From Bacteroidota bacterium (GTDB lineage: Bacteria; Bacteroidota; Rhodothermia; Rhodothermales; Bin80), in the NCBI GenBank assembly GCA_026708685.1, contig JAPOUL010000136.1, forward strand, positions 1 through 64,000: a stretch of 64,000 nucleotides of DNA. The letters are read 5' to 3'. Under the pieces are notes generated by a model. It searched no databases and was not told the origin of the DNA. It saw only the letters and a list, made by a program, of their open reading frames with translations. Below, piece by piece: positions 25 through 58,749 of the stretch. The translations under genes and the position numbers were made by a program. Position 1 is the stretch's first letter, and each line of letters starts with the position of its first letter.

Positions 25-1166
25 TTAAAACTCAATCGTCGTGAATATTATGGGTTGGAGTTCAGACTTCATCCATTGATGCATTGAGGGGATTGGAACT
101 GAATACAAATATCCATCCTTTGCTAATATTCCTTCTTTGACAAATTTTTGAAATAGTTTTGTGCCATTAGGAATCCCAAACTTCTCATTTAAGGCAGATT
201 CGACAGATTCTTTACGGAACGGATTTCCATCTTGTATCTCTGCAATCGACATAGCTAGACTAAGAATTTCATCTCCATCAAATACATCAATCAATTACCT
301 GTAATACTTCGCTCTTGCATCCCGCCCTCTTTCCAGTAAGGCATTGAGCCCAATCAGTGGTGATCATATTTTGATCCGTTTTTAATTGATCTATAGCTTG
401 GTCTGCATACGAAATGATGTGCTGAGGCCAACCATGGGTTTCTTTCATTACAGCCTCAATCCAACTTGATGGGTCATTGATAGCTTGACCTTCTTTCATG
501 AGCCAGTCTCTCAGAATAGCGATTTGATGTTTTTCATCAAGGTGTCTGAGTTCCACAAAGTATTTTCCAGATGGATGTGAGATCCCCAACATTTTGAAGG
601 CTTATTTCATCCCATGTAAACCAGCTGCTATAAAAACAACAGGACGTTCCAATAAACCATTGTGAATAGCATTTAGGATGGATCGCGGGTCCTATCTGAT
701 CTTCAGATGGCTTGTTTCCAGTCAGTAAAGTTTGAGATTCGTCTAATGATAGAAGCAGTGGTTTTTTGTACCTTTTAAAAATCATAATATTAATAGGCAT
801 ACTCTCAGCCAAGTTTGACGTAAAATTTGTCCATGAAAATTTTGTGGATAGAATATTTAGTAATGCAATCAATAGATGACGCATCCACCCAATGCCAAGT
901 GATATTCGTAAAGCAACTGGTTCCTAAATGGCTACGGGAGTCTCAAGCTTTACCACCTTCCATCCGTTCTTTTCAGCGAGTTTTTCAAACTCGTAAAGAA
1001 GAGTACTTTTACCAGCACCCGCTACACCCTGAATGAGGAAAGTAGATCCTCGCTTGATCTTCACTGCATTCGAGATAAGTTCGCAAAAATGATTCAAAAC
1101 TTCTTCACGGCCATGAAAATACTTGGCAGGTCCGCGATCAAATGTAGCTGTCAATAGATCAGACAT
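25..1166 (-). pseudogene. Decayed AAA ATPase of the FHGR family
   Basis: A P-loop ATPase gene broken into several frames. The first piece (from an ATG at 1166) has the family N-terminus RGPAKYFHGREEV and Walker A GVAGAGKST. After a frame change a second piece carries the Walker B-like KKPLLLSLDESQ. Another shift leads to the sensor-like stretch VVFIAAGLHG, an in-frame TAA near 606, then RDWLMKEG and GWPQHIISYA. A last frame change gives the C-terminal PIPSMHQWM. Aligned by eye with the intact relatives at 13320-14711, 44452-45750 and 57607-58749, the order of blocks is complete apart from a deleted stretch near 290, so this was a full gene that died recently enough to remain recognisable. It lies downstream of the methylase gene on the same strand. 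Confidence 0.88.
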
Positions 1167-1385
1167 AGACGATTAATTGCTCCCTGATTTACTAGTTAAG
1201 CAATTGTATACATCAATGGGGTTCACATTAGCATTTGGTGCGTACCAACAAACGTATTGATGAGGTTTTTTGACTCATCTAAGCGTGGCAAACAAAGATC
1301 ACTCATAATATAGATCACCATTGTTGGTGGTATCAATTATTTTCTCTCACAACCAGCATGCTTTGATTAATTGATAAATCCCCTA

Positions 1386-1415
1386 CTCTACTCATCAGTG
1401 TCATGCTCAGTAGAG
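1386..1415 (-). terminator. Possible hairpin at the end of the methylase gene
   Basis: Two perfectly complementary 7-base arms (CTCTACT and AGTAGAG) at 1386-1392 and 1409-1415 bracket the TGA stop of the methylase gene, with a 16-base loop. No clear U-run follows on the minus strand, so a terminator or 3'-end-stabilising role is only a guess. Confidence 0.25.
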
Positions 1416-4400
1416 CTCGGGTAAGTTCGTTGTTGATTCAACTTTCTTGGTGCTACGCATTCGCTTACCACCTGCATTTTTTGACTGATTTTCCGAGCGG
1501 GCAAGATTTTCAGCGAGTAAACGCTTTAATACTTCTCTACGGGCTCTTGGGCTGATGGTGTATCTAACTCTGTCATTTTCGGGTAGTGTTTCCACCTCGT
1601 GAAAATCATGTTCAAGGTCAAGATCATGCCATCCATAGGCATCACGAACAGCGATATCAAGGCTGACATGAAGACGGCGGAGTTCAAGTATTCCCTCATA
1701 ACCTGCAGTGGCAGTTTCCTTGTCTTTTTTGGAACTCAATGCTGTTATTTCGGGGGATAGATCGCGGTCGTGAAATAAATTGTACACATCCGTCAAACCA
1801 AGCCAAAGTGTCAGCATCAATTCTTTACGATGAGCGTGATAACGTTCTCCAATCTGTGCAAGGTCTGCATTTGGCGCTTGCCATAGTCTTTTTGGAAATG
1901 TAAATGTGTTGAAGCATTTTGAGGGGGAATAGCGGAGAATTGTAGAGAGCTTACCGCTATACTTACGAGCCCAAACCTCATGTAGGGTGGATTGAACGAC
2001 GCTGATTAGATCCCAACGATCAGAGGTCAAGATATAAATTGTATTTCCGAATACAATATTAGTAGGCATTTGCGAAAAGTTCAGATACTTAGTAGTTGCA
2101 GTAGCTGCAAAGCATTTTGGTAAATCTTTGATGTTGTTGTATAGATTTGAAGCCAGTGAACCAAATTGCCACCAGTTTTCACGCCTACTTTTCATTTTAT
2201 TAGTTGCACGTATCGGCTTAACTAATGACATTATTCGTTCAAATGGTTCTTCATATTCTTGTGCTTTCTCAATTGGCAACTCCTTAAAATTGATAATGCT
2301 TCTGCCGGGTAACTGATCGGGGTTGTTGGTAAGTTCTATACCATTTATAATCGACATGATGACCTCGGCATTTCGCGAATCTAATGCTATGAGTTGATGT
2401 GCTTCCTCGTGAGAAAGTAAAAATCCATCCCCCAGAAAAATAGATCCTTGGAACATTGAATTACGATTTTCATTGATAACTTTGGGTTCATCAAATTCTT
2501 CATCTTCTTCAAAATATGTGTTGATCGTGTTAACCAAACAATTGTCAAGCATCATTGGTCCATTCCATTCTCCCTTATGGAGAGCAAAAGTGGATACCAC
2601 AAGATTGGCTACACCCGGCCATTTCATTCCCCGAATCGCCATGTTGATCTCCCCTCCTGACGAAACAATTTGTGCCAATCCATCCTTACGAATTCTCCCG
2701 TCAATAATTGAATTAGTTGTGATAATTGACAGAAAACCGCCCTCTCTCAGTAGCCCATAAATACGTCTGAGGAAGAATACCACCAAGTCACTCAAACCAG
2801 CTGGAGCATACCCCCATTTGATAAACTCACAAAATGGATAACCGTAGTTACCACTCAAAGCCTGACCTCCCAAATAGGGTGGATTACCAAGAATACAGTC
2901 AAACCCGCCCCGCTTCATAATCTCTGGAAATTCCAAAAACCAGTGAAAGAAACGCTTTTGTCGACTGATCTGGAGAGCATTATTAATTTGATCTTCCGTA
3001 GGCTTTGATTGTCCGTTGTAATACGCACGAAACTCGCTATCGGTAATAAGTTTGTGTTCGTCTTTCAGTGTCTTTGGAGTATAAAACTGTGCAATTGGAA
3101 TACTTGCAATCGTCCGCAGGAATCTTGATTTCTCTCCCTGATCTAAATCATAGAACCGCTCAGACTTCAGATCTAATTGGACAAGAGTATTATCGGGGAG
3201 GTTTGCAAGGTCTTCTGATTCTTCTACGTGTTCACTATATCGCTTGGATGTACTGGTTTTGTCATAAATGGACAACTGCCCTTGCTGATTCAATTCCTTT
3301 TTATTACGCTTGCGATATACCGTAGCTAATTCTTTGTCATCATCTTGTAAAGCTTTGAATGCCTCAACCGGTACACCTTGTTTTAAATCATCAAAATGAG
3401 CAAAGCCAACAATAGCATTACCACACTTGATATGGTGGTCCAAAAAATTCAGAGGCTTTCCCGGAATATGTGCCTCAAGCCAGAGTGCAACCTTACATAA
3501 TTCCACTGCTAATGGATTCAGATCTACACCATAAATGCATCCACTGATCACTTCACGAATGGCATCACGATAGGCCTCAGGAGATGGTTGCTCCTCGCCT
3601 GATTGAACGATGGCCAACTGAGTAGCAATCCGCCGGGCCGCGGCAAGAAGAATATGACCAGAGCCACAAGCAATATCAGCAACCCTTAAATCCAACAATG
3701 CACTTGCTGGATCAGATTTTTTCAGACACGCATCAATCAGATGGTCCAGCGAATGTTTGATCAAAGGCTGTACCAAATCATCGGGCGTATAGTGAGAGCC
3801 CGTTGCAGAGCGCTCCTTTCCCTTTCGGAATTGAAATCTCCACTCATGCCCTTCCCGAATAAATTCGGATTCAAACTCAAGGAGCCCCTCATAGACCGAC
3901 CCAAATTCCTCCACATTCAATGCCGCATAATTGACACGGATGAGCTGGCGACTCTCTGGATGTCGGTAAACACTCAAAGAGTGTAGACACTTTTGAAAGA
4001 CCTCATTACCCAGTTTACAACCGTTCAGATCACGCAACGCTTCGGTGGAAAACAAATGACCCGCCAAAGGAGTAATGCCAATATGATGCCCCGGTCCATC
4101 GGCCTCAAATAAACGAAAACATGCCAACAATGCAAACCAGAGATTATAGTGGCGATCTACATGAAGTGCACGATTCTCCGAAAGATGTCGCAAACGAGAT
4201 ACACTGTAATAGCCATAATATATATCCCGATGCTCCTTTTTGGCTTGTTCACCATAGACGAGCCCCCTCTCCTCAATCACCATCAAAAAGAGTAGACGAT
4301 AAATGAGCCTCAAGATCTGCTGATAATAGTCACTTGCCGAGAGTTCCTCTCTTTCAATAGCATCTTGAAGATCAGAGTTGTCTGGATGCTTCAGAAAACC

Positions 4401-5153
4401 ATTACCAAAATTGAGCACGGCATCTTTGACTGCACTGCTGAGTCCTTCCCGAATCCTAGCACCCTGCTCAAGAGAATCCTGATGGTACTGCTCAATCAAA
4501 CTCTCGGCAGCCGTATCATTGGAAAGAGGTAGACGAGTAGCATGAACTATGCGGTATAGAAGTGCGAAATCCGCAAAGAGTTTATCTCTAAAAATGCGGT
4601 CTAAATCAAATTCAAGATAACTCAGCTTGACGAGCCTTGAACTATCTCTCAGAAGCCGTAACACAGATCCATTAGTCACAATGCCGTAGAGTTGCTCATG
4701 CAGGTTGAGAAATTCCTGAATCAGTGCATGAGCCGACATCCGACGACGGGCATTTTCAGGTTTCTTGTCAAGCCCAGAGGAATCTTTAGCTCCTATGATA
4801 TGCACTGGAGTATCTGCTCGGTTAGTTGCAATATGGTGGAAGGCATAAGTGCGTCCATCAATGATAGCACCTTTTTGTTGATACTGAATGTCATAATGCA
4901 AGAGCCCTAACAATGGGATGATCCACTGATTACGGGTCTCGGTTGTAGCATTGTCTTTTACGGTTTCCAACTTACGCTGGAAGATACGCCAATAGTCAAA
5001 TGCATCCGCCCATGTGCGCGCGATTTCATCCTTGACCTTATCCTTAGAATCAAGTCCAAAATCAACCGGTCGTTGGCCTTGCTGCTCCTCAATCTGTCCA
5101 AAAATATCTGGAGATAGAATGGATCCTTCAATACGGATACCAGGATAATTCAT
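1407..5153 (-). CDS. Eco57I-type adenine-specific DNA methyltransferase (DrmMI/PglX-like)
   Basis: A 1248-residue protein with an N6-adenine methylase core. Residues 451-457 (TGSHYTP) lead into the SAM-binding motif I DIACGSG at 493-499. YGVDLNPLAVEL follows at about 541, and the catalytic NPPY lies at 757-760. The long N-terminal part (1-440) resembles the helical region before Eco57I-class methylases, and the C-terminal 400 residues probably form the target-recognition region. No PD-(D/E)XK nuclease motif was evident. It is the last gene of a three-gene operon: its ATG lies one base after the stop of the SNF2 helicase gene. Together with that helicase and the DUF1998 helicase, this is the gene content of class 1 DISARM, where the methylase marks self DNA. 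BREX PglX and type IIG enzymes share the fold, so the family name rests on neighbours. Confidence 0.9.
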   Translation of the reverse strand: MNYPGIRIEGSILSPDIFGQIEEQQGQRPVDFGLDSKDKVKDEIARTWADAFDYWRIFQRKLETVKDNATTETRNQWIIPLLGLLHYDIQYQQKGAIIDGRTYAFHHIATNRADTPVHIIGAKDSSGLDKKPENARRRMSAHALIQEFLNLHEQLYGIVTNGSVLRLLRDSSRLVKLSYLEFDLDRIFRDKLFADFALLYRIVHATRLPLSNDTAAESLIEQYHQDSLEQGARIREGLSSAVKDAVLNFGNGFLKHPDNSDLQDAIEREELSASDYYQQILRLIYRLLFLMVIEERGLVYGEQAKKEHRDIYYGYYSVSRLRHLSENRALHVDRHYNLWFALLACFRLFEADGPGHHIGITPLAGHLFSTEALRDLNGCKLGNEVFQKCLHSLSVYRHPESRQLIRVNYAALNVEEFGSVYEGLLEFESEFIREGHEWRFQFRKGKERSATGSHYTPDDLVQPLIKHSLDHLIDACLKKSDPASALLDLRVADIACGSGHILLAAARRIATQLAIVQSGEEQPSPEAYRDAIREVISGCIYGVDLNPLAVELCKVALWLEAHIPGKPLNFLDHHIKCGNAIVGFAHFDDLKQGVPVEAFKALQDDDKELATVYRKRNKKELNQQGQLSIYDKTSTSKRYSEHVEESEDLANLPDNTLVQLDLKSERFYDLDQGEKSRFLRTIASIPIAQFYTPKTLKDEHKLITDSEFRAYYNGQSKPTEDQINNALQISRQKRFFHWFLEFPEIMKRGGFDCILGNPPYLGGQALSGNYGYPFCEFIKWGYAPAGLSDLVVFFLRRIYGLLREGGFLSIITTNSIIDGRIRKDGLAQIVSSGGEINMAIRGMKWPGVANLVVSTFALHKGEWNGPMMLDNCLVNTINTYFEEDEEFDEPKVINENRNSMFQGSIFLGDGFLLSHEEAHQLIALDSRNAEVIMSIINGIELTNNPDQLPGRSIINFKELPIEKAQEYEEPFERIMSLVKPIRATNKMKSRRENWWQFGSLASNLYNNIKDLPKCFAATATTKYLNFSQMPTNIVFGNTIYILTSDRWDLISVVQSTLHEVWARKYSGKLSTILRYSPSKCFNTFTFPKRLWQAPNADLAQIGERYHAHRKELMLTLWLGLTDVYNLFHDRDLSPEITALSSKKDKETATAGYEGILELRRLHVSLDIAVRDAYGWHDLDLEHDFHEVETLPENDRVRYTISPRARREVLKRLLAENLARSENQSKNAGGKRMRSTKKVESTTNLPELY

Positions 5154-5154
5154 C

Positions 5155-8013
5155 TTAACTCTCTGGCAAAAGAATGTAGATCCCCATTAAATCCATCGGC
5201 AACACTGGATAGACCACCTGATAACGACGTGGCCCGATCAATGCACTGAAGCGTTCATGGGCATCTACGAGTTGCTTGGATTGGTTTTCAGCGATCTGAG
5301 TGAAGACATCATCAAACCGATCAAGGAGTTTCAGATCATTCTTCAGAAACCCTGCACGGGCTTCATTCGTGAGATTACTACTGGCTTGCACCGTGCGTAA
5401 CAACGTATGTGCCTGCTCATGATCAAGATGCACTGGATCATCAGGAGTCCCACTCCATCCCCACAAGAACATCTCTTCTGCAACAATCTGGTGCTTCCCC
5501 CTTTGCTTTTCAATCACATTCCGACATCTAAAAAGAAGCAGTGAAGTCTTAACATCAACTTGTTTGGTGCGAATGACAGCAGATCGTGCGGCTCGCTTTC
5601 CCTCACGGTCCATCGTATTAGACATCACCAGATGGCAAAGCTGTTCAACAAAGCGATGGTTTCTACCAACGTAGTGATACCCTTCAGGGGTTGGTGATGT
5701 AAAACTGATTTTGATGATCTTATCCTCTGGAAGAAGCCCCACGAGCTGATGAGGTAAGTTGCCCGAAACGATCCCAAACCCTTTCTCCTCCTTCGCAATC
5801 TGAACACCAAATAGATTCCTTAGTGCACCCGTCACAAAATCCTTGACCGCATCAGGATCCCCTATCGCTTCATCAACCTTTTTGAGATCTTCTTCAATCT
5901 CTTGGGCCTTTATGCGATTTTGGGCAAAAATACTACGAGAAAGTTGATTCCACTTGCGTCCCTCTTCCACCTGTCGAGAAACCCTCTCTTGCATTTTCTT
6001 AACATCTTCATCATCACTCCAATCATATAATTCACCCTGTTGCGGTGTTTCAGACTTTTGAATTTTGCGATTGGGATTCAGAAGCAATGACTGAGTAATA
6101 GTATCAATAATACTCTGTGAATCTTCGGGAAATGGAACATTGATTCCAGTGGAGCGCTTGATTTCACGTACCTTTTTTAGTAAAACATCAAGTACAATAC
6201 CGTCAATCGGATTATCACTACCATAGAGTAGGCAGATTTTGACCTCTGGTGCCTGCTGACCAAACCGGTCCACCCGCCCTTCCCTCTGTTCAAGATCATT
6301 AGGATTCCATGGAAGATCATAGTGCAAAACTGCAGAGAATAATTCCTGTAGGTTGATTCCCTGGCTCAAACAGTCGGTTGCAATCAAGAGGCGTGGATGA
6401 TCACCAGCCATATCCTCAATCCTCTGTTTACGCAGATCATCGGGTTCATCACTGGTGATGACCTCCAGAACCAATTTTGGTATCTTTTTGGACAGTAATG
6501 GACGAAGGTGTTCTCCCAAGTAGTACGCCGTTTCAATAAAACGACAGAAAATTACTGGATTGAATCCACCTAAAATCCAGTCCTCAATAATCAGTAATGC
6601 GGCGTACAGTTTTTCATCATTGTCAATTCCAGCAAATCCTTCAAGATGTCTTGCAAAAAATCGCAACTTCTTCCATTGATAATTCGTCCAGTTCTTGCGA
6701 TCCATTACCTGCGTAGGAACAGTGTCTGTAGCCACTCCGTTTTCTGAATCTCCAACTGGATTATAGTCATCTAATTCTTCTCCAGTAGACAACGGTTCTA
6801 TTTCAGAAGATACTAACTTTTCCCGTCGTCTACGGAGCATTTTGACACCCGCACTTGGGCTGGACATAATGCCCCGTAGCAAACCAAGTGCAGTCCAATA
6901 ATGTGCACGCTTCGTCTTTGCACCATCGGGTCCTGGTGCTACCAGTTTTCGTGCAAACTCAACCACATCATTGAAAAATTTTAGATAATTCCCCTTCAGA
7001 TTGTAATCCAACTCAAACATGTCTCGTCTCGGGAAAGGAGTATCTTCATTCATCCACTTTTCAACATCACCTCGCTTGCGTTGTACAAAATGCCGTGCTA
7101 AATCTTTGCGCTCATTTTGTGTTGATGTGGGCAGATCTAAGTCCTCAAATTCGGATTTAAGCAATCCCAACAAGGAATGAAATTCTTCTGGTTTGCCACT
7201 GTGGGGAGTGGCCGTAAGTAAGACCAAATGTTGATCCGCCTTCTTGGATATGTCATGTAGCAGGTGATAGCGTTGTTGTTGAGCACTTGAAGCCCCTTGC
7301 GGCCGGGCACATGTGTGGGCTTCGTCAACAATAATCAGTTCTGGACACTGCTCTATAAATACATTACGACGAGTATCCACTTTGATATAATCAATACTGA
7401 TGATCTGATAACGATAGTACTCATAGACACTCACATCTCCTGGGACCATTCGATCTAATCTTGCCTGCGTATTGGATCGGATAATGACGGCATCAATCCC
7501 AAGTTTTGCCTGTAATTCTTGTTGCCATTGATCACAAAGATGGGGAAGGCAAATCACGGCAAATCGTTTGATCTGTGCCCGTTCCATCATTTCTCGAAGA
7601 ATGAGTAGTGCTTCCACAGTTTTACCAACTCCTACATCATCTGCAATCAAGAGGCGTACGATGTCTTGACGCATTGCCATCACCAATGGGATGATCTGAT
7701 AGGCTCGTGGTCTAAAGGATAACTTTGCAAAGCAACGGAATGGACCCGCACCATGACGAAATGCTAATCGTGCAGCATCATAGAGAAAGCGTGCAGTAGA
7801 TATATCACCAAGATCTGAGGTATTTGGATACTCAAAGTGAGCGTCTTTGGGGGTATCTTCTTCAATTTCAAAGGGCAGATAAATACCCGTTGACTCCTCT
7901 TCTGAACCTCCAAGCGGTTTGATAATCAGCAATTCAGGATTATCGGACGGAAGGACCACCCACTCACGACCACGAAGAGAAACCAACTTACCCGGCTGCC
8001 ATGCTACATTCAT
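5155..8013 (-). CDS. SNF2/HepA-type helicase (DrmD-like)
   Basis: A 952-residue superfamily 2 ATPase of the SNF2/RapA type. Walker A is DDVGVGKT at 125-132, the DEAH box is at 230-233, motif III LLTATPHSG is near 265, and motif VI QREGRVDRFGQ is at 576-586. The N-terminal 60 residues resemble the small beta domain that precedes HepA-like helicases. The start ATG overlaps the stop of the preceding helicase gene in an ATGA arrangement, and the stop is directly followed by the methylase gene, so the three are almost certainly translated from one transcript. DISARM class 1 systems contain a SNF2-like helicase (DrmD) beside an adenine methylase, which fits. Restriction-associated SNF2 helicases in other systems cannot be excluded. 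Confidence 0.88.
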   Translation of the reverse strand: MNVAWQPGKLVSLRGREWVVLPSDNPELLIIKPLGGSEEESTGIYLPFEIEEDTPKDAHFEYPNTSDLGDISTARFLYDAARLAFRHGAGPFRCFAKLSFRPRAYQIIPLVMAMRQDIVRLLIADDVGVGKTVEALLILREMMERAQIKRFAVICLPHLCDQWQQELQAKLGIDAVIIRSNTQARLDRMVPGDVSVYEYYRYQIISIDYIKVDTRRNVFIEQCPELIIVDEAHTCARPQGASSAQQQRYHLLHDISKKADQHLVLLTATPHSGKPEEFHSLLGLLKSEFEDLDLPTSTQNERKDLARHFVQRKRGDVEKWMNEDTPFPRRDMFELDYNLKGNYLKFFNDVVEFARKLVAPGPDGAKTKRAHYWTALGLLRGIMSSPSAGVKMLRRRREKLVSSEIEPLSTGEELDDYNPVGDSENGVATDTVPTQVMDRKNWTNYQWKKLRFFARHLEGFAGIDNDEKLYAALLIIEDWILGGFNPVIFCRFIETAYYLGEHLRPLLSKKIPKLVLEVITSDEPDDLRKQRIEDMAGDHPRLLIATDCLSQGINLQELFSAVLHYDLPWNPNDLEQREGRVDRFGQQAPEVKICLLYGSDNPIDGIVLDVLLKKVREIKRSTGINVPFPEDSQSIIDTITQSLLLNPNRKIQKSETPQQGELYDWSDDEDVKKMQERVSRQVEEGRKWNQLSRSIFAQNRIKAQEIEEDLKKVDEAIGDPDAVKDFVTGALRNLFGVQIAKEEKGFGIVSGNLPHQLVGLLPEDKIIKISFTSPTPEGYHYVGRNHRFVEQLCHLVMSNTMDREGKRAARSAVIRTKQVDVKTSLLLFRCRNVIEKQRGKHQIVAEEMFLWGWSGTPDDPVHLDHEQAHTLLRTVQASSNLTNEARAGFLKNDLKLLDRFDDVFTQIAENQSKQLVDAHERFSALIGPRRYQVVYPVLPMDLMGIYILLPES

Positions 8014-11000
8014 TGAACCTTCTTAAAAATATCAGGACGGACAGCAATCTTGGTAGCAAGGTCATCACGATAATGCCAGCACCATACCTCATCACCGCGA
8101 GCAATGATCAGTTGACGCTGATTCTCATCACGTTCACGCACCTGCGGGTCATCATGAGGTGATCCATCGCAAAAGATCCATATCCGCGGCTCATAATAGA
8201 AGTCTGGCTGGCAGTAAATCCCAGGTACCCGCTTCTGTGCTTGATCAGGTAACCGTAATCCATTTTTGAACAAGTAATCAATGAAGACCCGTTCTGTAGA
8301 CGAATTTGGATCTATATGATTGAGAATATGCTGATACTGCTGTTCATAATCTCTTGATGAAGGACGATCATTGATCTGAATTTCCGCAGTTGCTAGTTTG
8401 ATGAGTGCATCACGGATTAGAAAGCGGTCTATACGCTGATGATAACGCTGATTGTAGTAACTCAACAGATCGTCATAGGATGCGGGAGCTTTGTAGGAAT
8501 CATCTTCAAACTTACAGATCTCTTCCGCTTTTTGAATGATTCTTCGAAAAATGTTTGGATCTTCAACAAATTGCGATAAAATGCCAAGACTCCCCTCGGT
8601 CGCTTCATAAATGAGAATGCGGGGAGACTCTGGATCTCCAATCTCAGTCACCCCAATCTCATTGGATTCTACCTGAAAAAAAGACTCAATGGCCCGTTTG
8701 AGTGCATACTGGAGGGTAATGATCCCATTGGGGTCCAAATTTAACGATTCAGTGGACTCAATGTACAGTGCATCGGCTGAATTGGATGTCCATAACTTGA
8801 CCAAGCGATATTCCTCTCCGCGGTCTGATTTCGGCATTTCTGTCCACCAGAGACCAGAAGTCATACCCAATGGAAATCCCTCAACTTGTTGAGATCTCCA
8901 GCCTCTGTTGACTTGGATCAATCGTGCTGCTGGAATAAAACGTAGAGTCATTAGATGGCTTTCTCTAAAACAAATCCTCGCAGGACGAATACTGTCAAAG
9001 TTGCCTCCATCCACATGCACAAAAGATTCAATATCATACCCACGCGAAAGTCGTTCTTCTTCCTCGCAGGTAATACGAGTCGTTTCTTCCCCTCTTGATT
9101 CGGTCATTTCAATCAGATGATGGAGATACTCTGTATTCCCAGCTTCACTGAGATTAATTCCAGAAAAGGGACAGATCTCTAAATCAGACTGTTCATTCAT
9201 GAAAAAGTAACCAGCACGAAGATTGATCTTCACATCCATCAAGGATGATTCCGCATCTTGAACGACCATCTGTGTAACCCTAAATTTGGATCCATTATGA
9301 TAGATCTGATTCCCAGGTCCAAATTCCCGTAAGGCTACCGCACGTGTACGGGAAATGTATTCGCCCGAAGTGGTGCTGTTGGGAAGAAAGACGCTCAGAG
9401 GAAGGCGTGTGAAGTTATAACCGGGTAGAAATCCCGCAGCAGCCAGATACCTGTATGGATAAAATTCACTGAAGTGAGAGTGCCAGCCACGATCGTTGCG
9501 TAATAAGTTGAGTTGTCGGTTTGCCTGATCTTGCAATCGCTTGTATTTTCGATATTCCTTACCTCCCACTTGGAGCAATCCAGACTCAATTGGCTGAGTA
9601 GCACGGGTGAGTAAGGATCGTGCCGATTGGTGGAGCGTTCTCCATCGCATCAGAGCATCATCAAGACTAGTGGACATGTCCAATAAGTTCTTGTCAATCC
9701 AATCATCACCGTACCATGAATTGGGTATTTCTTTCAAATCTTCTGAAAAATCTTCAATCGTTCGTAAGAAATCCGATTTGATGGATTTTAAAGCTTTCTG
9801 TCCAAGTTTCAACCCCTTATGAACACTTGGGGATAATGGCATTTCTGGATGATTCTCATCTATAAGCCGGATTAATGATGCTTTTTGCCCACCCATATGA
9901 TCCAAGCCGGGTAAGCCAACGGTGCTGATTGCAAGTGCATGGAGATGTGATTTCAAAAGCTCGCTGTTAGCGAGGTCAATACGTGGTGCATGGACCACCC
10001 CAGCTACCATGTCTACCTGTTCGTTAAAGTAATGGCGATCATGAGCAGAAAAACCTGAACAATAGGTAAAGACTAATGCCCCCTGTCCGCTCCGTCCTGC
10101 ACGGCCAGACCGTTGAACATAATTGGACGCATTGGGCGGAGCATTTCGCATGTGAACGACAGTCAATCCACCAATATCTACGCCTAGTTCCATCGTTGGC
10201 GAACAATACAAAGCACTCACAGACTCTCTCGAGATCCGCTTTTCATCAAGCATCTTGTTAGACTCGTCCACATACCAGTCCGCACGAAAACGATCCTCAC
10301 GATTCTGACGTTTAGAGACACTCAGTTGTCCAGTATGATCCTTAGCGATTAATCGCTTGCCTTTGGTGTAATTGGCTGAATAGACACTCTGGAAAAATTG
10401 GTTTGGAGAGATTTTGGATGCTTTGTAGGATCGACTTTTGATTGGATCCTGTCGTACGGTCTTACCATCACCCAACTTCCATAGAATCTTTTCAATACGA
10501 AGTCGAAAAACGGGTACTTTTTCCTTATTTGAACTCAGAGCGGTCTCCTCATACAAATAGTCGACTTCTTTCAACTTTCTCAAGAGTAGCAAAATGAACT
10601 CGTTGTATCGTTCTCCACGAAAATGATCAGGCTCCAAGTTTATTTGCGTTGCACAATCTTTGATATATTTTCCAAAAGAGCTTGTCTGTCCTATACTCTT
10701 GTGAGAGAAGCGTTCTCGTTTATGGAGGGTCTGCAATCTAAGCACGGACGGATGAGTCAACTCCTCATCTTTATCAAGCGTCCAAGGTCGCTTCAGTTTT
10801 TCACGGAAATGTTTTTCAAATGTGCGTAGACTGTCCGAATTCAAATAGTATTCACTGTGGATGGCGTACTCATGTCGGAAATAATCAAGGATGGCGGTTA
10901 GAAACTTCTTGCGTTCAGTATGATCCAGACGGTTAATAATCTCAACCTCAGACCAGAATTCATCCTCAGCTACAATATCGTCAAGATTCTTGTAGTCAAT

Positions 11001-13181
11001 TTGCAGAAGAGCACATTGTTCTAAATTGGGAAGAACGATGCGCCAACTTCTACGTAGATCCTCAAGTGCCCGAATGAAAAGATAGTGGCGCAGGGCTTTA
11101 TCGTACTTCTTTTTGATCTGTGCTAATTCGGGTTCACCATCACGATGGCCATAATCTCCGAAAGGCAAATCCAGAGATGCAAAGATCGCATCACCCAAGG
11201 TTGCGTAGTCAAGTATTCCATGCTCAGAAGTCTCCAGTGCGCGAAATATGCCAGCACGCAAACGAACAACTTGAATAAAGTCATTGAAATGCCCCGACTG
11301 TAATGCGGCATCCTGACGATTATCGGTAAAACTCAGCAATTTTTGATCTTGTACAGAATACCCCCTATCACGGAGATGATTCAAAATCAAAAAGGAAAGG
11401 ATTGTAGTGGATGTGCTACGTCCTTCGCTACCCAAGGGGGTCAGCTTTGTACTATCATTGGTTCGGTGGTCATAGAATACACCACCGGTAGGATCAAAGA
11501 GAAGAGGAGCTTGCATGAACCACCCCCAGTATTTCATTGGCTCGGTATGGGAGCAGTTTCCAGATTCGTCATAATACAACTTTTGTGGAAACTTATCTTT
11601 TATCTTTGGGTGTGGAGCTTGCCGTCCACCTGAACGGTTTTGGACCCATGCACTGGGCAAATGAGAGAGATCTTGCTGTGGATCCCAAATATCATTGCCC
11701 ACAATCAGGTAGCCATCTGTCGCAGATAAATCCTCTTCTCCACTTGAACGAAACTCACGAGGAATGAGCTGTCCATCTGCCAGAGAAACACAAAAGAATG
11801 GATGCCCTGTAGCCCGGCTAAATACATTTGGGAAAATAGGCTTGGAGATGTCATCATGTTTATAGATCCCAGGTTCAAGTGTAATGTAACGATCCTCGCC
11901 TTGATCAAGGGTTGTATAGACGGATCCAGTCTGAGCAATAAATTGATGAAGTTTGTAAGGAAGTAGCGTTTCTCTACCTCCATGTTCCCGAATCTTTTTG
12001 TTCACCTTACTGATCCATTGAAGAGCTTTTTCAAGGATCTGTTGACATGATTCTGTAGAATGGCCAGAGTCCTCCGACAAAGCCTCAACGACCTTATAGA
12101 AGCCCATTGGCTTACGACGATGAACATTTCCATCCGATCTTATCTCCAATGCAATACGTCGCTCAAGCCAATTCATCACTGGATGTTCACACAATTCGTT
12201 ATCACTTGCATCAGTATTAATCCCAGCAGTAATACTAGCATTTAGTTCACTTTTGGAGGGCAAATTTATAAGGAGACTTCCAAGTGAAGGTGCAAGTGTT
12301 TCATCTACAATTTGGTCTTCTTGAAAGCGTTTTCCAAAAATCTTGCTCGCTGTATCTGCGACTTCTATACGATGTGAATTGGACTCATCCATTGATACCA
12401 TCGTCGCCGAAGTTCCAATGCAACAGATGGATTGTTGACATTGGGACCGAATCCGCCGAATCAACATTGAAACATCCGCCCCCTGCCTTCCACGGTAAGT
12501 ATGAAGTTCGTCAAAAACAAGATACCGTAGATGTTTGAAGATGGCATCTCGTATTGAACGTTCCTGAATGCGAGTGAGTAAAAGCTCAAGCATCATGTAG
12601 TTGGTCAGCAGAATTTGGGGAGGATGCTTTCGCATCTGCTCTCTCTGCTCCTCCGTTTCTTGACTGGTGTATTGATGATATGAAATCTGGAAATCACGCT
12701 CCGTACTCTTTTCGTAGTTGTCCTTGTAGGTGTTAAATTCGTTGGTCTGAGAATTAATCAGAGCATTCATGGGATAAACGATGACCGCAGTAACTCCCTC
12801 AGTCTCTGGATGGGTCAACAGATGATTGAAAATCGTACCAATGTAGGTCAATGACTTTCCTGAACCCGTTCCTGAAGTCACTACAAAATCACGCCCCTTG
12901 ATTCCTAATTGAAGTGCTTCATCTTGATGACGATACAGCAAATAACCCTTGAAGATATGCTTTACATCACGGTGTAGTAACCCACCTTCAACCACCTTTT
13001 CAACTGAACCAGCCTTTTCGTAGGCAGGATTGAACTGTAGTAGTGGTTGAGGCCAAAGAATCCCCTCGGAGAGATGTTTTTCAACCTCAAGTTTAATTTC
13101 TGAATCAGAAATATTGATGAAACTACGGATGTACTCGGAATAGCTCTTAATAATCTGTTTGTGCGTTTCGTAAATATTCAT
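8010..13181 (-). CDS. Giant DEAD/DEAH helicase with DUF1998 and probable C-terminal nuclease fold (DrmA/DrmB-like)
   Basis: About 1720 residues, counted here from a TTG at 13208. The first ATG (13181, beginning MNIYETHK) is the better start. Motif I SGTGSGKS is at 112-119, the DEAH-like box DELH at 233-236, and SAT at 267-269. After a very long insertion, motif VI QRSGRAGRSGQ lies at 1032-1042. Around 1500-1560, YEATEGSLGIL matches the glycine-rich core of DUF1998. In DISARM, the helicase (DrmA) and the DUF1998 protein (DrmB) are separate; here both appear in one chain. The last 90 residues (E1639, PDF at 1668-1670, IFCDGSPHD at 1678-1686, then spaced D and R residues) look like a Vsr/DUF559-type PD-(D/E)XK nuclease. 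That is inference. First gene of the operon, 138 bases after the ATPase gene. Confidence 0.88.
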   Translation of the reverse strand: MNIYETHKQIIKSYSEYIRSFINISDSEIKLEVEKHLSEGILWPQPLLQFNPAYEKAGSVEKVVEGGLLHRDVKHIFKGYLLYRHQDEALQLGIKGRDFVVTSGTGSGKSLTYIGTIFNHLLTHPETEGVTAVIVYPMNALINSQTNEFNTYKDNYEKSTERDFQISYHQYTSQETEEQREQMRKHPPQILLTNYMMLELLLTRIQERSIRDAIFKHLRYLVFDELHTYRGRQGADVSMLIRRIRSQCQQSICCIGTSATMVSMDESNSHRIEVADTASKIFGKRFQEDQIVDETLAPSLGSLLINLPSKSELNASITAGINTDASDNELCEHPVMNWLERRIALEIRSDGNVHRRKPMGFYKVVEALSEDSGHSTESCQQILEKALQWISKVNKKIREHGGRETLLPYKLHQFIAQTGSVYTTLDQGEDRYITLEPGIYKHDDISKPIFPNVFSRATGHPFFCVSLADGQLIPREFRSSGEEDLSATDGYLIVGNDIWDPQQDLSHLPSAWVQNRSGGRQAPHPKIKDKFPQKLYYDESGNCSHTEPMKYWGWFMQAPLLFDPTGGVFYDHRTNDSTKLTPLGSEGRSTSTTILSFLILNHLRDRGYSVQDQKLLSFTDNRQDAALQSGHFNDFIQVVRLRAGIFRALETSEHGILDYATLGDAIFASLDLPFGDYGHRDGEPELAQIKKKYDKALRHYLFIRALEDLRRSWRIVLPNLEQCALLQIDYKNLDDIVAEDEFWSEVEIINRLDHTERKKFLTAILDYFRHEYAIHSEYYLNSDSLRTFEKHFREKLKRPWTLDKDEELTHPSVLRLQTLHKRERFSHKSIGQTSSFGKYIKDCATQINLEPDHFRGERYNEFILLLLRKLKEVDYLYEETALSSNKEKVPVFRLRIEKILWKLGDGKTVRQDPIKSRSYKASKISPNQFFQSVYSANYTKGKRLIAKDHTGQLSVSKRQNREDRFRADWYVDESNKMLDEKRISRESVSALYCSPTMELGVDIGGLTVVHMRNAPPNASNYVQRSGRAGRSGQGALVFTYCSGFSAHDRHYFNEQVDMVAGVVHAPRIDLANSELLKSHLHALAISTVGLPGLDHMGGQKASLIRLIDENHPEMPLSPSVHKGLKLGQKALKSIKSDFLRTIEDFSEDLKEIPNSWYGDDWIDKNLLDMSTSLDDALMRWRTLHQSARSLLTRATQPIESGLLQVGGKEYRKYKRLQDQANRQLNLLRNDRGWHSHFSEFYPYRYLAAAGFLPGYNFTRLPLSVFLPNSTTSGEYISRTRAVALREFGPGNQIYHNGSKFRVTQMVVQDAESSLMDVKINLRAGYFFMNEQSDLEICPFSGINLSEAGNTEYLHHLIEMTESRGEETTRITCEEEERLSRGYDIESFVHVDGGNFDSIRPARICFRESHLMTLRFIPAARLIQVNRGWRSQQVEGFPLGMTSGLWWTEMPKSDRGEEYRLVKLWTSNSADALYIESTESLNLDPNGIITLQYALKRAIESFFQVESNEIGVTEIGDPESPRILIYEATEGSLGILSQFVEDPNIFRRIIQKAEEICKFEDDSYKAPASYDDLLSYYNQRYHQRIDRFLIRDALIKLATAEIQINDRPSSRDYEQQYQHILNHIDPNSSTERVFIDYLFKNGLRLPDQAQKRVPGIYCQPDFYYEPRIWIFCDGSPHDDPQVRERDENQRQLIIARGDEVWCWHYRDDLATKIAVRPDIFKKVQ

Positions 13182-13319
13182 GTATAAACTAAAATAACTG
13201 CACGCCAATTATGAGTTCATGGGGCGAGTTGGATTCACGAGATAAAATCTCACTCTTAAAATAAAGGAATGATATTGATGTGTAGCCCAAGTGCTGTGAT
13301 ATATTCACTGGAGGATTCC

Positions 13320-14711
13320 CTACCATTTCAACTTACAAGTGGGCGTGTTCACAACACTTTGGGTGAGGGGTTGGATTGACAAATGATTGTTGTGTCCCTT
13401 AGGGTTGGCTTCTGAATGATGTTTACCGCCATGGAGATAGTGCCCGTCCCTCCCTCTCTTTCTGGCAGGATCAGAGTCCTTCTCCTTGATCTGAGACGGA
13501 TCATCTTTCTTGACGGGAGGCAGTGCCTTTTGAGTGGGATCATCATACAACGCCTTGCGATGAGCATCATGTCCTTTGGATTTGCCCTTGGTGTACGTAT
13601 CAACAAGCCAAGTATGCATTGAATCAATAGGAATGTGGTAGCCATCCCCGCCCTTAGCTGCGATTACCCCCTCCTCAAGGAGTCTGTCAAAAAGATCTGT
13701 AGCCTTCTTGTCTCCATAGATTTTTGTAAGTGACTTCAGCACATCCAAGCAATCAAAAACCCCACCCGCACTGGTCTTCCTGAGATACTTGGCCAAATGC
13801 TTTATCTCGTCAACATAGAAATCGCTGAGACGCTCCATGTAGTATCCGATTCGCCCCTCTTTGCCCTTCGCGATGATTTCTTGCAACCCCTCAGCAGTCA
13901 TGACCCCATCCCTTGATTTTAGATGTTTGGATGCGTGCACCGAATACGAATGTACATGGCGAGGCCAAACGCCAGATTCCTTGGCGATTATATTTACCCA
14001 CTCGGATGTGTCTCCCCTTGCCATTCCATCTCTGACAAGCCAATCACGAATCACTGCACGAGCATCTTCCATGGAGAGAGACCCAATCTCAGAGGTGTTC
14101 TTTTCGCCAAACCTTGAAATATCCAGTGTTTTAAGCGCTGTTAATGCAGAACCCAGCCCTGCGGTAAGCAGGATAATTGGTCTGCCGATCTTTCCGTTGT
14201 GGATAAGCTCAAGCAGCTCAGTCACTTTCGCTTTGTGTTGGGGGCGGAGTATATCTTTGTTTCCTATGGACTGAACTTCGTCAAGAATTAACAAGAGCGG
14301 TTTAGAGCTCTCTCTGAGCAATCTCTTCACAGAGGTCTTTGATCGAACGCGTTTTCGTGCCCAGGTATATATACCCTTTAGCCCAACTTGATGGGTGCTT
14401 TCAGATGACGAGTATTCCCCATCTTGGCCCATAATCTCGCGAAGATTGTCAGCCTCCCAAAGTGAGGGCACAGTAATATAGAAGCTGTCAAATCCCTTAC
14501 TATCAGCCGCATTCTTGCACTCATGGAGTAGTGCAGTTTTTCCAGAGCCAGGTGCTCCATATATAAGGCGAACCATGCCCCCCCCTGTCGCCCGTACATC
14601 TGACAGTGTTCTGGCAAAGCCCGCCAGAATGTCTGAGCGTCCATGGAAATACGGGGTTGGTCCCCGATCATGCGACCCTGTGCGCGGATCACAGGTTACA
14701 GATTGCTTCAT
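13320..14711 (-). CDS. AAA ATPase of the FHGR family, next to the DISARM-like operon
   Basis: A 463-residue P-loop ATPase resembling AAA_16/ORC1-like proteins. The N-terminus has RGPTPYFHGRSDIL, Walker A GAPGSGKT is at 52-59 and Walker B LLLILDEVQ ends near 147. Further on are a LLTAGLGSALTAL sensor-like stretch, RDWLVRDG, a W-P-(R/Q)-H motif, and a probable winged-helix end with IPIDSMHTWLV. A lysine/aspartate-rich tail of about 75 residues follows; its LPPVKKDDPS is echoed in the paralogue at 44452-45750. No nuclease, protease or membrane domain is visible. It precedes the helicase-helicase-methylase operon on the same strand, so co-transcription is possible. The gap is larger than the overlaps inside that operon, and related copies elsewhere lack the operon, so it may be an independent gene. 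Function unknown. Confidence 0.85.
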   Translation of the reverse strand: MKQSVTCDPRTGSHDRGPTPYFHGRSDILAGFARTLSDVRATGGGMVRLIYGAPGSGKTALLHECKNAADSKGFDSFYITVPSLWEADNLREIMGQDGEYSSSESTHQVGLKGIYTWARKRVRSKTSVKRLLRESSKPLLLILDEVQSIGNKDILRPQHKAKVTELLELIHNGKIGRPIILLTAGLGSALTALKTLDISRFGEKNTSEIGSLSMEDARAVIRDWLVRDGMARGDTSEWVNIIAKESGVWPRHVHSYSVHASKHLKSRDGVMTAEGLQEIIAKGKEGRIGYYMERLSDFYVDEIKHLAKYLRKTSAGGVFDCLDVLKSLTKIYGDKKATDLFDRLLEEGVIAAKGGDGYHIPIDSMHTWLVDTYTKGKSKGHDAHRKALYDDPTQKALPPVKKDDPSQIKEKDSDPARKRGRDGHYLHGGKHHSEANPKGHNNHLSIQPLTQSVVNTPTCKLKW

Positions 14712-15705: not shown

Positions 15706-15984
15706 ATGGAAGATTATCAATTCTATATGATCGTTGGTAGCGTAATTGCTATCGGTCTGACAATCATTGCATTCCTATGGAAAATATCGAGTGATAACCG
15801 TAAGGCGGATGCGGCCAGACACAAAGAGGTGCAGGGGTTTATGAATGATTTGCGTATGGAGATGCATCAGATGCGGATTGATCTATCCGAAGATATCCAC
15901 GAGTTAGGTGAACGTGTTGTGCGTATTGAGGGACGGCTTGACGAAAAGGACTCGTGGAGACGTACAGAGGAGTTAGTTCAGTGA
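15706..15984 (+). CDS. Small membrane coiled-coil protein, copy 1
   Basis: A 92-residue protein with one N-terminal transmembrane segment (about residues 7-25, MIVGSVIAIGLTIIAFLW). A charged stretch (SSDNRKADAARHKE) and a heptad-like helix (residues 45-80) follow, ending in GRLDEKDSWRRTEELVQ. The topology suggests a single-pass inner-membrane protein with a short coiled coil on one side. It is tandem-duplicated in the next gene: the central part is nearly identical at DNA level, and both copies end in the same EELVQ-TGA followed by a small hairpin. No functional family is recognised. The product resembles many short bacterial membrane proteins with a coiled coil, and a holin/haemolysin-like or structural role would be guesswork. 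Confidence 0.7.
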   Translation: MEDYQFYMIVGSVIAIGLTIIAFLWKISSDNRKADAARHKEVQGFMNDLRMEMHQMRIDLSEDIHELGERVVRIEGRLDEKDSWRRTEELVQ

Positions 15985-15985
15985 T

Positions 15986-15998
15986 CCCACATCGTGGG
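15986..15998 (+). terminator. Hairpin directly after small membrane protein copy 1
   Basis: CCCAC and GTGGG with a 3-base loop begin one base after the stop codon. There is no T-run after it. A hairpin in the same place follows copy 2, so it was probably part of the duplicated unit. It could slow decay of the transcript or act as a weak terminator. Confidence 0.35.
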
Positions 15999-16069
15999 GG
16001 CAATATCAGTTCTAATTTCTTGATTAACCCCTATGCAGGCTGAATCGTTTTATATAAATTGTTAAATCA

Positions 16070-16345
16070 ATGCAAGACTATCAATTCTTAACAATCGTTA
16101 TAGGCTTTGCCACTCTCTTTGTCGGCATTGTTGCAGTCTTTGCTTTATTGTGGAAAATATCAAGTGATAACCGTAAGGCGGCTACGGCCAGACACAAAGA
16201 GGCACAGGACCTTAGAAAGGAGATGTATCAGATGCAGAGTATGCTGTCCCATGAGATCCGTGCCGTAGGCGAATGTGTTGCACGTATTGAGGGACGACTT
16301 GATGAAAAACAATCGTGGAGACGTGCGGAAGAGTTAGTTCAATGA
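16070..16345 (+). CDS. Small membrane coiled-coil protein, copy 2
   Basis: A 91-residue paralogue of the preceding gene: MQDYQF start, one transmembrane segment (about 8-28, richer in F and V than in copy 1), the shared KISSDNRKA segment, then a coiled-coil region ending GRLDEKQSWRRAEELVQ. The two differ mainly in the membrane segment and the middle of the helix. They keep the same spacing of charged residues, so selection seems to have kept both as proteins. The 85-base spacer between them holds no other gene. Function unknown; the two could form hetero-oligomers. Confidence 0.7.
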   Translation: MQDYQFLTIVIGFATLFVGIVAVFALLWKISSDNRKAATARHKEAQDLRKEMYQMQSMLSHEIRAVGECVARIEGRLDEKQSWRRAEELVQ

Positions 16346-16349
16346 TCTC

Positions 16350-16368
16350 ACATCCCTATGGGGCATGT
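16350..16368 (+). terminator. Hairpin after small membrane protein copy 2
   Basis: ACATCCC and GGGGCATGT pair with one bulged C around a 4-base loop, starting five bases after the stop. No U-run follows. It corresponds in position to the hairpin after copy 1. Confidence 0.3.
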
Positions 16369-44451: not shown

Positions 44452-45750
44452 TTATCGTTCCATTGAAAACTCGCCACTACCTTTGCTGTAGCCTCTGTCA
44501 TCGCCTTTATCTTTCTTAACACCCGATGGATCATCTTTGTTGGGTGGAGGCAATAACTGGTCAAGCTTGGGAGGTAGCTTCTTGGGTGTCTGGGGGATGT
44601 CTTGGCTCTTGTTCTTAGCGTACTGATCAATAAGCCAGTTATGCATGGATGGAATGGGAATCCCATATTCTCCGCCGTCGCGCTGATCAATTATTCCCTG
44701 CTCAAGTGCTTGGTTGAAGAGTTTATCAGCTTCTTCTTGAGTTAGCCCACTCTGCTTTAGATCGTCTATGATGCGGATACGAGTCGTGGCGCCATCTATT
44801 GGAACATCCATAATGGCTCTTGCAAGAGCTTCGCGCCACTCCTTATCAATACCATGTGCTCGACTCTCGTAATACTCCGCACAATATTCAGTACCTTTCT
44901 CAAGCACAAACTCCAGTCCCTCATCGGTCATGAGATGATGATTAGAACAGAGATACTCCACGGCAGGGGTAATATAGGACATGATATGCTGAGGCCACCC
45001 GTACGTATGCTCCGCTATGGCTTCAATCCATGGACTTGGATCATCTTCCACGCCACCTACCTGCATGAGCCAATCTCGGATCACCCCACATGTAGATTCT
45101 CTGTCTAATCGCCCAAGGTGGATATCGCAACTACGATCGATCCGCGAAAGTCCAAGCGTATTCAATGCTGCCTCTGTTGTCCCAAGTCCGCCTGCAAGGA
45201 GCATCACTGGGCTTCCCAAGTCTCCATTGTGTATCTCTTTGAGAACATTTCCAACAGTGGGCTTCATTTCTTTAGGCACCAAATCCTCTTTCCCCAAAGC
45301 CTGAGCCTCATCCAAGATCAGCAGAACGGGCTTCTTCTGGTCCTGTAATATCTTAATGATGGTACGAGCGGCACCCTTAATATCTATACTCAGGTTAGCA
45401 TGTCCAATATCTGCAATCCCGATTTCGCCACTTACACCAGTGAGTTGGCGGCCACCCTTTCCCAGTCTGGACAGTACATCATCTATGTCCCATAGAGTAT
45501 TGGTGCCGATATGCACAGTTTGCCATCCGCTTTCCTTTGCGTCTTTCGCGAGCTTATCAATCAACGCTGTCTTTCCTACACCTGGTGGACCTTGTAACAA
45601 AAATGTGGTTCCCTCATTTAGACTTCTGTGTCCATATAGGACTCTTCTGAAAGTGGTCCTGATCTCTTTTCGCCCATGGAAAAAGGGGGATCGACCGCGA
45701 TCTCGTGGTAGAATGGGCGGGTGATTGGAATCGGATGGTTTTGGATCCAT
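44452..45750 (-). CDS. AAA ATPase of the FHGR family, next to the Gabija-like genes
   Basis: A 432-residue paralogue of the ATPases at 13320 and 57607. The N-terminus reads RDRGRSPFFHGRKEI, Walker A GPPGVGKT is at 54-61 and Walker B VLLILDEAQ ends at 150. The sensor-like stretch MLLAGGLGTTEAAL, RDWLMQVG and YGWPQHIMSY follow, and the winged-helix end has IPIPSMHNWLID. A charged tail of about 50 residues contains LPPPNKDDPSGVKK, similar to the tail of the 13320 copy. Same strand as the Gabija-like genes, whose last stop lies 430 bases upstream. It is enclosed by a degenerate direct repeat, suggesting it arrived as a unit. Function unknown. Confidence 0.87.
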   Translation of the reverse strand: MDPKPSDSNHPPILPRDRGRSPFFHGRKEIRTTFRRVLYGHRSLNEGTTFLLQGPPGVGKTALIDKLAKDAKESGWQTVHIGTNTLWDIDDVLSRLGKGGRQLTGVSGEIGIADIGHANLSIDIKGAARTIIKILQDQKKPVLLILDEAQALGKEDLVPKEMKPTVGNVLKEIHNGDLGSPVMLLAGGLGTTEAALNTLGLSRIDRSCDIHLGRLDRESTCGVIRDWLMQVGGVEDDPSPWIEAIAEHTYGWPQHIMSYITPAVEYLCSNHHLMTDEGLEFVLEKGTEYCAEYYESRAHGIDKEWREALARAIMDVPIDGATTRIRIIDDLKQSGLTQEEADKLFNQALEQGIIDQRDGGEYGIPIPSMHNWLIDQYAKNKSQDIPQTPKKLPPKLDQLLPPPNKDDPSGVKKDKGDDRGYSKGSGEFSMER

Positions 45751-57606: not shown

Positions 57607-58749
57607 TTACACAAATTTCTTGGCGAGTTTTTGAGGTTGACGCTCCTTTGCATAACTACGAACGAGCCATGTGTGCATGGACGGGATCGGAACCGCAAAA
57701 TCGCCATCTTCCCGCTCATCAAGGACACCCTGTCTGAGGGCACGCGTAAACACATCCTGTGCTACCTCACTGGGGTACTCTGTCTCAAGCACTTCAATCA
57801 CATCCTCTTTGTCTACGGACTCACCAGGGTGTAAGTCTGTGAACAGGCTCGCTAAAAGAACACGTTGCTTCCTTGATATACCATGGGCCCTAGCTTGGTA
57901 ATATGCGGACATGCGGGCTTCGCCCTTAACAAGGATTTGTTTGAGATGCACCTTTGTCGGATCCCCTCCTGCCTGAGCAAGGGTGCTTTTGACAGACTCT
58001 ATGCAACTCATCATATGGTGAGGCCACCCTTGTGACTGCTCGGCAAGGGATTCGATCCACTCCGTTGGTGGATTTTTCATACCGCAGCTATGGCACAGAT
58101 GATCGTGGATCACGGCACAAGTGGACGTGTGCCCCAGTGCTCCGAGCCGCACCCTGTGGGTATCTTCAAAGCGTGAGACACCTAACGACTCAAACGCAAG
58201 TTCAGTAGTGCCTAGTCCGCCCGCCAACAGGAAGACTGGCAACCCAACCTTTCCATTGTGTATCTTGTCCAGCGTGTTCATAGTAGCGACCTTGACCGCT
58301 TCGGGTGTCACAAGTTCTGCGAGGTGCTGAGCTTCGTCCAACACTAAGAGTAGCCCATTGCCATGTGCGGCCTTTTGCACTATATGAACGACTGCCGACG
58401 ACTGGGTCAACTCTTTTTTACCTGACACCCCTGCGATCTTCGCATCTACATGTGCCCCCAGTTCTTTGCGGGACGTGTACTCCACGCCGAGCGTAGCCTC
58501 CATGTCCTCGGGTACATACAGGTCGGAAGGGCTAACGGTATCCTTTACGGCATAGCCTATATCGTCAGCGTGCTCGGCGAGTTTTGTTAACAGTGCTGTC
58601 TTTCCCGCACCTGGTGGACCCTTGATGAGAAAGGTGGTGCCTTTACCTCTGTTACGGTAATGCTCAAGTGCATGTACAAAGTGCTTGATAATTTCTGTAC
58701 GCCCATGAAAGTATTCTGCGGGCCCCCGGTGCTCAGTGAATGCATCCAT
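57607..58749 (-). CDS. AAA ATPase of the FHGR family, stand-alone copy
   Basis: 380 residues, the shortest intact member. The N-terminus has HRGPAEYFHGRTEII, Walker A GPPGAGKT is at 44-51 and Walker B LLLVLDEAQ ends at 141. FLLAGGLGTTELAFESLG, IHDHLCHSCG (where relatives have RDWL), SQGWPHHMMSC and IPIPSMHTWLVRSYAKER follow, with almost no tail. The base composition looks richer in G and C than its neighbours, judged by eye. It lies between the symporter and a shattered Panacea gene. This copy shows that the family can exist without the DISARM-like or Gabija-like genes. Function unknown. Confidence 0.85.
   Translation of the reverse strand: MDAFTEHRGPAEYFHGRTEIIKHFVHALEHYRNRGKGTTFLIKGPPGAGKTALLTKLAEHADDIGYAVKDTVSPSDLYVPEDMEATLGVEYTSRKELGAHVDAKIAGVSGKKELTQSSAVVHIVQKAAHGNGLLLVLDEAQHLAELVTPEAVKVATMNTLDKIHNGKVGLPVFLLAGGLGTTELAFESLGVSRFEDTHRVRLGALGHTSTCAVIHDHLCHSCGMKNPPTEWIESLAEQSQGWPHHMMSCIESVKSTLAQAGGDPTKVHLKQILVKGEARMSAYYQARAHGISRKQRVLLASLFTDLHPGESVDKEDVIEVLETEYPSEVAQDVFTRALRQGVLDEREDGDFAVPIPSMHTWLVRSYAKERQPQKLAKKFV

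Follow-up and report, generated by a model that had tools for sequence, protein, structure and literature searches.

A three-gene helicase and methylase operon of a Bacteroidota bacterium as a probable ARMADA Type I system of an apparently zinc-free branch

Which defence system is encoded by a minus-strand cluster of two helicase genes and an adenine methylase gene in a draft Bacteroidota genome (170 contigs, 3.8 Mb), and does the AAA ATPase gene that precedes the cluster take part in it? The window, as the whole analysed stretch of 64,000 nucleotides of contig JAPOUL010000136.1 is called here, had been described in a preliminary description as carrying three tightly coupled genes, and their open reading frames were recovered exactly, with one corrected start (Table 1). 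The methyltransferase and SNF2 genes are separated by 1 bp, and the SNF2 and helicase genes overlap by 4 bp. The helicase frame had first been read from a TTG at 13208; since its homologues begin at residue 10 of that frame, translation very probably starts with the ATG at position 13181. With this start, the interval between the ATPase and helicase genes is about 138 bp, unlike the tight spacing within the operon. Promoter and terminator scans of this interval returned promoter-like matches at the rate of shuffled sequence.

Table 1. Features of the operon and of the neighbouring ATPase family in the window
Feature	Coordinates	Strand	Remarks
PglX/MmeI/DrmMI-like adenine DNA methyltransferase (ArmB equivalent)	1407..5153	-	1248 aa
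SNF2/RapA-like helicase (ArmA equivalent; BrxHII/DrmD/DpdE relative)	5155..8013	-	952 aa
YprA-family helicase-nuclease (ArmC equivalent)	8010..13181	-	1723 aa from ATG at 13181
Domains of the YprA-family helicase			DEAD/RecA1, RecA2, DUF1998/MZB, predicted C-terminal Vsr-like nuclease; CxxC motif absent
Predicted C-terminal Vsr/EDxHD-like (PD-(D/E)XK) nuclease domain of the helicase	8013..8345	-	AlphaFold, Foldseek, sequence profile
AAA ATPase, neighbour outside the system	13320..14711	-	Member of a dispersed multicopy family
Further copies of the ATPase family	44497-45714; 57646-58728	-	
Degraded copy of the ATPase family	70-1172	-	

The core of the operon consists of a YprA/DruE-like helicase, a SNF2 helicase and a PglX/MmeI-type adenine methylase. 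Pfam profiles identify DEAD, Helicase_C and MZB (DUF1998) domains in the first protein, SNF2 and Helicase_C in the second, an Eco57I/MmeI methyltransferase domain together with a target recognition domain of MmeI type in the third, and AAA_16/ATPase_2 in the product of the adjacent gene. Catalytic motifs are intact in all three translations: those of the large helicase, ADDVGVGKT and DEAH of the SNF2 translocase, and ACGSG and NPPY of the methylase.

The same combination of a YprA helicase, a BrxHII-like helicase and a PglX-like methyltransferase was described as ARMADA by Bell et al. 2025 (PMC12458937). According to that description, the YprA gene of Type I systems generally comes first, followed by the BrxHII-like and PglX-like genes, and the YprA protein ends in a Vsr-type nuclease, whereas Type II systems have the reverse order and a fourth gene, GajB/RelE. 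The window operon has the content and order of Type I, running from the YprA helicase through the BrxHII-like SNF2 protein to the PglX-like methyltransferase; a single chain contains the helicase, the DUF1998 module and a Vsr-type C-terminal nuclease, predicted to be active from its fold and conserved residues. With Type II, represented by ArmABCD of E. coli, it shares homologous SNF2 helicase, methyltransferase and YprA helicase genes, but there the order is SNF2-MTase-YprA-GajB/RelE, the helicase has about 2100 residues, and the fourth gene, ArmD, has no counterpart in the window operon. In a 41-protein tree (midpoint-rooted, built by a fast search and containing some long branches) the window helicase falls within the three-gene Type I group, and the ARMADA II anchors (L102 of E. 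coli, L108 and L109) and Druantia III (L101 and L103) lie apart; the Type I rows of this tree were chosen by operon structure, gene order and separation from Type II, and the Type I reference protein of PMC12458937, WP_108720193.1, was left out. Among solved structures, the best relatives are 9tu7 (1.2e-78) and 9wae (1.4e-48), both large helicases, ahead of B. subtilis YprA, 6znp (2.9e-38). A probable BrxA-like helical domain after RecA1 is implied by the alignment of the protein, over its full length, to other Type I helicases. We therefore read the operon, with a probability of roughly nine in ten, as an ARMADA Type I anti-phage system, apparently of a zinc-free branch, its antiphage activity being proposed by analogy; the phage tests in PMC12458937 concern Type II systems. 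The architecture suggested earlier to be distinct is indeed distinct from DISARM, but the type itself has already been described, as all genes of the three-gene core correspond to ARMADA Type I in the same order (PMC12458937).

The trio recurs with identical order in Gammaproteobacteria, Burkholderiaceae, Deinococcus, Actinomycetota and many Bacteroidota, including plasmids of Paraburkholderia, Caballeronia, Deinococcus and Nocardioides, and because of this recurrence the grouping of the three genes is not accidental. An operon from a Gammaproteobacterial genome is 69% identical; Chlorohelix has the same cluster with two extra genes inserted, and in Haloquadratum and Planktothrix the order is reversed, as PMC12458937 describes for archaea and cyanobacteria. 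A scan of genome contigs with one protein as query gave two loci, and among viral contigs a first scan gave 0 loci and an alignment-based scan 7. One predicted viral contig with a tape-measure-like gene (L130, IMGVR_UViG_3300048586_000404) encodes an ARMADA I helicase of the zinc-free kind, 61% identical, together with the SNF2 protein, which suggests mobile carriage. On the conjugative Nocardioides sp. JS614 plasmid pNOCA01 (L031), DISARM DrmA/DrmB, an ARMADA I operon and McrBC-like genes adjoin one another.

Whether the ATPase preceding the operon is a linked component, as the preliminary description left open, can be judged from its distribution. A four-gene system with the AAA ATPase as a working part, e.g., a sensor or regulator, would agree with its position on the same strand shortly upstream and with a family member found about 1.9 kb upstream at a second locus (L020). 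However, of 39 ARMADA I loci examined over 1.6-5 kb upstream, 37 have no homologue there, the window and L020 being the two exceptions and both belonging to one bacterial family, in which a genome may hold up to dozens of scattered copies, and the whole Gammaproteobacterial genome with the 69%-identical operon yielded no homologue either. The window's own genome holds at least 28 scored homologues (81 first-look candidates), and the copies examined stand alone between unrelated or housekeeping genes, many of them with in-frame stops. Homologues occur in 16/16 genomes searched of the window's family and in 0/43 others of its order; a YFHGR-type DNA pattern gave 33 matches against 3 in the control, and a plasmid protein search with the ATPase as query gave no matches. 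A four-gene system is thus very unlikely: the ATPase is an unrelated neighbour, and that it should not be added to the system can be taken as settled. The family itself, with the motif RG.A.YFHGR...GAPGAGKT and restricted to one bacterial family among those searched, is possibly a finding in its own right. By eye, several copies (L117, L118, L122 and L124, for example) have a common upstream sequence, GAACC.ATG...GAGTTGACT, and the dispersed genes may therefore be served by one kind of promoter.

The assignment to ARMADA Type I also has to be weighed against described systems with related proteins. PADLOC and NCBIfam models detect all three protein types, a complete DISARM, Hma or Druantia set being absent. 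The nearest PADLOC models are DruE for the helicase, a DpdE model at 552 bits over the full length for the SNF2 protein (then DrmD, 254 bits, and HmaA, 170 bits), and DrmMI at 694 bits for the methyltransferase. The kinship with DISARM class 1 noted earlier is borne out by the DrmMI-like methyltransferase and DrmD-like SNF2 protein in common, and it is likewise correct that helicase and DUF1998 module form one chain and that DrmC is missing. Could the operon derive from DISARM by fusion of DrmA with DrmB and loss of DrmC? The DrmMI and DrmD scores would speak for this, as would 282 bits to the NCBIfam DrmD model; but the last is far under its cut-off of 610, DrmA models fail with E of only 0.006-0.007, and DrmB and DrmC genes are absent from the operon, whereas in DISARM class 1 DrmA and DrmB are separate genes accompanied by DrmC, and the family scores of the window proteins lie far under the cut-offs. 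Moreover, the helicase is nearest to DruE-type models and is placed in the ARMADA I group by the tree. According to PMC12458937, a single chain for helicase and DUF1998 is the norm in the family, and DISARM is the one branch consistently split; therefore, the single chain seen here did not arise by fusion of two genes of DISARM, and a DISARM variant is even less likely than a four-gene system.

Hma, proposed earlier as the closest relative, does not hold that place, given the 552 bits of the SNF2 protein to DpdE against 170 to HmaA; HmaA is only a secondary PADLOC match of that protein, and no Hma partner is among the matches listed for the methyltransferase or the ATPase. Druantia III (DruE, DruH) has in common a large YprA-family helicase-nuclease, DruE being among the closest solved structures, but it differs in its DruH partner, its PLD nuclease domains and its lack of a methyltransferase or SNF2 gene; among the open reading frames of the operon and their PADLOC matches there is no DruH-like gene. 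The DISARM, Hma and Druantia identities were all rejected on the basis of family scores, gene content and phylogenetic placement. Dpd (DpdE, DpdJ) is related through the SNF2 protein, which matches one PADLOC DpdE model end to end, and through DpdJ, a YprA lineage with reported loss of the DUF1998 cysteines, but the window operon is devoid of 7-deazaguanine genes and DpdJ models match its helicase weakly.

The C-terminal nuclease of the helicase was examined by structure prediction and by sequence profile. The last 111 residues are modelled by AlphaFold at pLDDT 93.7, and Foldseek gives its best-supported match to I-Bth0305I, a Vsr-like homing endonuclease (3r3p; probability 0.99, TM 0.59/0.66), with E only 0.048; a sequence profile independently places 3r3p first (E 0.042), DUF559 is matched by 3/7 members, and E18, D48, D60, H64 and D73 of the domain are invariant in 7/7 diverse sequences. 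Weak singly, these lines combined support a Vsr-like nuclease that is predicted to be active.

The feature that sets the window helicase apart from the Type I description is the complete lack of CxxC motifs: the CxxC zinc-binding modules and DUF1998 cysteines, which the main text of PMC12458937 gives as typical though not defining for Type I, are missing. An alignment of 34 ARMADA I helicases, 18 cysteine-bearing and 16 of the window clade, contains 11 clustered columns (window positions 464/467, 572/575, 1329/1332, 1346/1349 and 1573/1577/1580) that are cysteine in 18/18 of the former; in the window clade nine of these have no cysteine (0/16), and the others retain it in 1/16 (575) and 10/16 (1346). 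A histidine beside the DUF1998 cluster, present in 18/18 of the other set, is found in 8/16. Isolated invariant cysteines behave differently, being kept in 12/16 (388) and 16/16 (1002) of the clade, so there was no general cysteine loss, and some replacements are themselves conserved: S464, D572 and D1580 occur in 16/16. All 16 helicases lie on one side of a single branch (SH-aLRT 100), and as the two sets had been labelled by CxxC count before the tree was built, the single change on the tree is a test of the grouping. The clade spans several Bacteroidota families, one Gammaproteobacterium and two Burkholderiaceae plasmids, and the viral-contig copy also lacks CxxC. A draft genome might suggest that a single diverged or degenerating gene gives a false impression of loss, but this is the least credible of the alternatives: all 16 helicases show the loss, they come from several phyla and in some cases from complete plasmids, and they have unbroken reading frames, intact helicase motifs and the same replacements throughout.

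This clade thus appears, from sequence, to have lost three predicted zinc sites together, the DUF1998 cluster included, while its catalytic motifs stayed intact, and its helicases are apparently without bound zinc. Retention of the DUF1998 fold is suggested by the MZB match, which lies above the Pfam cut-off, and by the alignment; the AlphaFold model of residues 1095-1732, made for three sequences, is of low confidence (pLDDT 34.4) and plays no part in this. As the main text of PMC12458937 reports loss of the DUF1998 cysteines only for Dpd, the zinc-free clade is new relative to that text. We lean towards regarding it as a distinct ARMADA I subtype of several phyla, whose helicase has other residues at three structural zinc sites of the canopy and RecA2 inserts and would function there without metal, independently of the Dpd loss.

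A mechanism may be proposed by analogy with ARMADA II, DISARM and Druantia III. In ARMADA II, deletion of any of the four genes, or mutation of most catalytic motifs tested, abolished protection, and infected cells stayed intact (PMC12458937); the Druantia III relative DruE is a helicase-nuclease that loads on 3' single-stranded DNA. By this analogy, the PglX/MmeI-like methylase would mark host DNA at an adenine-containing motif as self, and the SNF2 translocase and YprA-type helicase would act on phage DNA that is incoming, unmodified or replicating. The YprA helicase would load on 3' single-stranded regions and move under an OB-CON-DUF1998 canopy, and its C-terminal Vsr-like nuclease would cut the phage DNA, making the defence direct and not abortive. 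In the branch described here, zinc would not be needed to keep the canopy and the RecA2 insertion modules in shape.

The zinc-binding DUF1998 module is regarded as a hallmark of the YprA family and as part of the movement on DNA. A clade of defence helicases without the predicted zinc sites, but with fold, operon and catalytic residues kept, would therefore amount to a natural experiment on the role of these sites. The zinc-free window helicase and a helicase with four CxxC motifs (L016, genome G002) come from the same bacterial genus, and so the two forms are directly comparable. If the proposal is true, the zinc-free subtype might keep working under zinc scarcity or thiol oxidation.

Several further observations concern related genes and the surroundings of the operon. 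Elsewhere in the same genome (L022, G000:C97, 9797-20000), a 2065-aa YprA helicase that groups with ARMADA II, and would be labelled DruE by PADLOC, is followed by a 696-aa GajB-like helicase, a locus that looks like an ARMADA Type II operon. Within the window, a plus-strand ORF of 176 aa at 14916-15446 matches DruA (DUF4338, E 1.7e-10) and is 52% identical to a stretch of the 484-aa L018 protein; it is apparently a truncated remnant, outside Druantia. Beside it, two imperfect direct repeats (15761-16354; about 80% identical, 361-373 bp apart) lie inside short plus-strand ORFs. An apparent inverted repeat with arms on either side of the region (528-584 / 16293-16361) was rejected because these arms are not in mutually inverted order. 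Solitary genes of 477 aa in four Bacteroidota genomes (L076, 3482-4915; L089, 5640-7073; L090, 6503-7936; L091, 7861-9294) correspond to the zinc-free helicase in its N-terminal part only and end at an identical point. The contig of L076 also carries a full-length helicase gene (L077) with the same start as the 477-aa gene, and the convergent neighbours of L089 and L091 resemble BREX brxL/pglZ by eye. The shared end point is possibly a site of recombination or phase variation.
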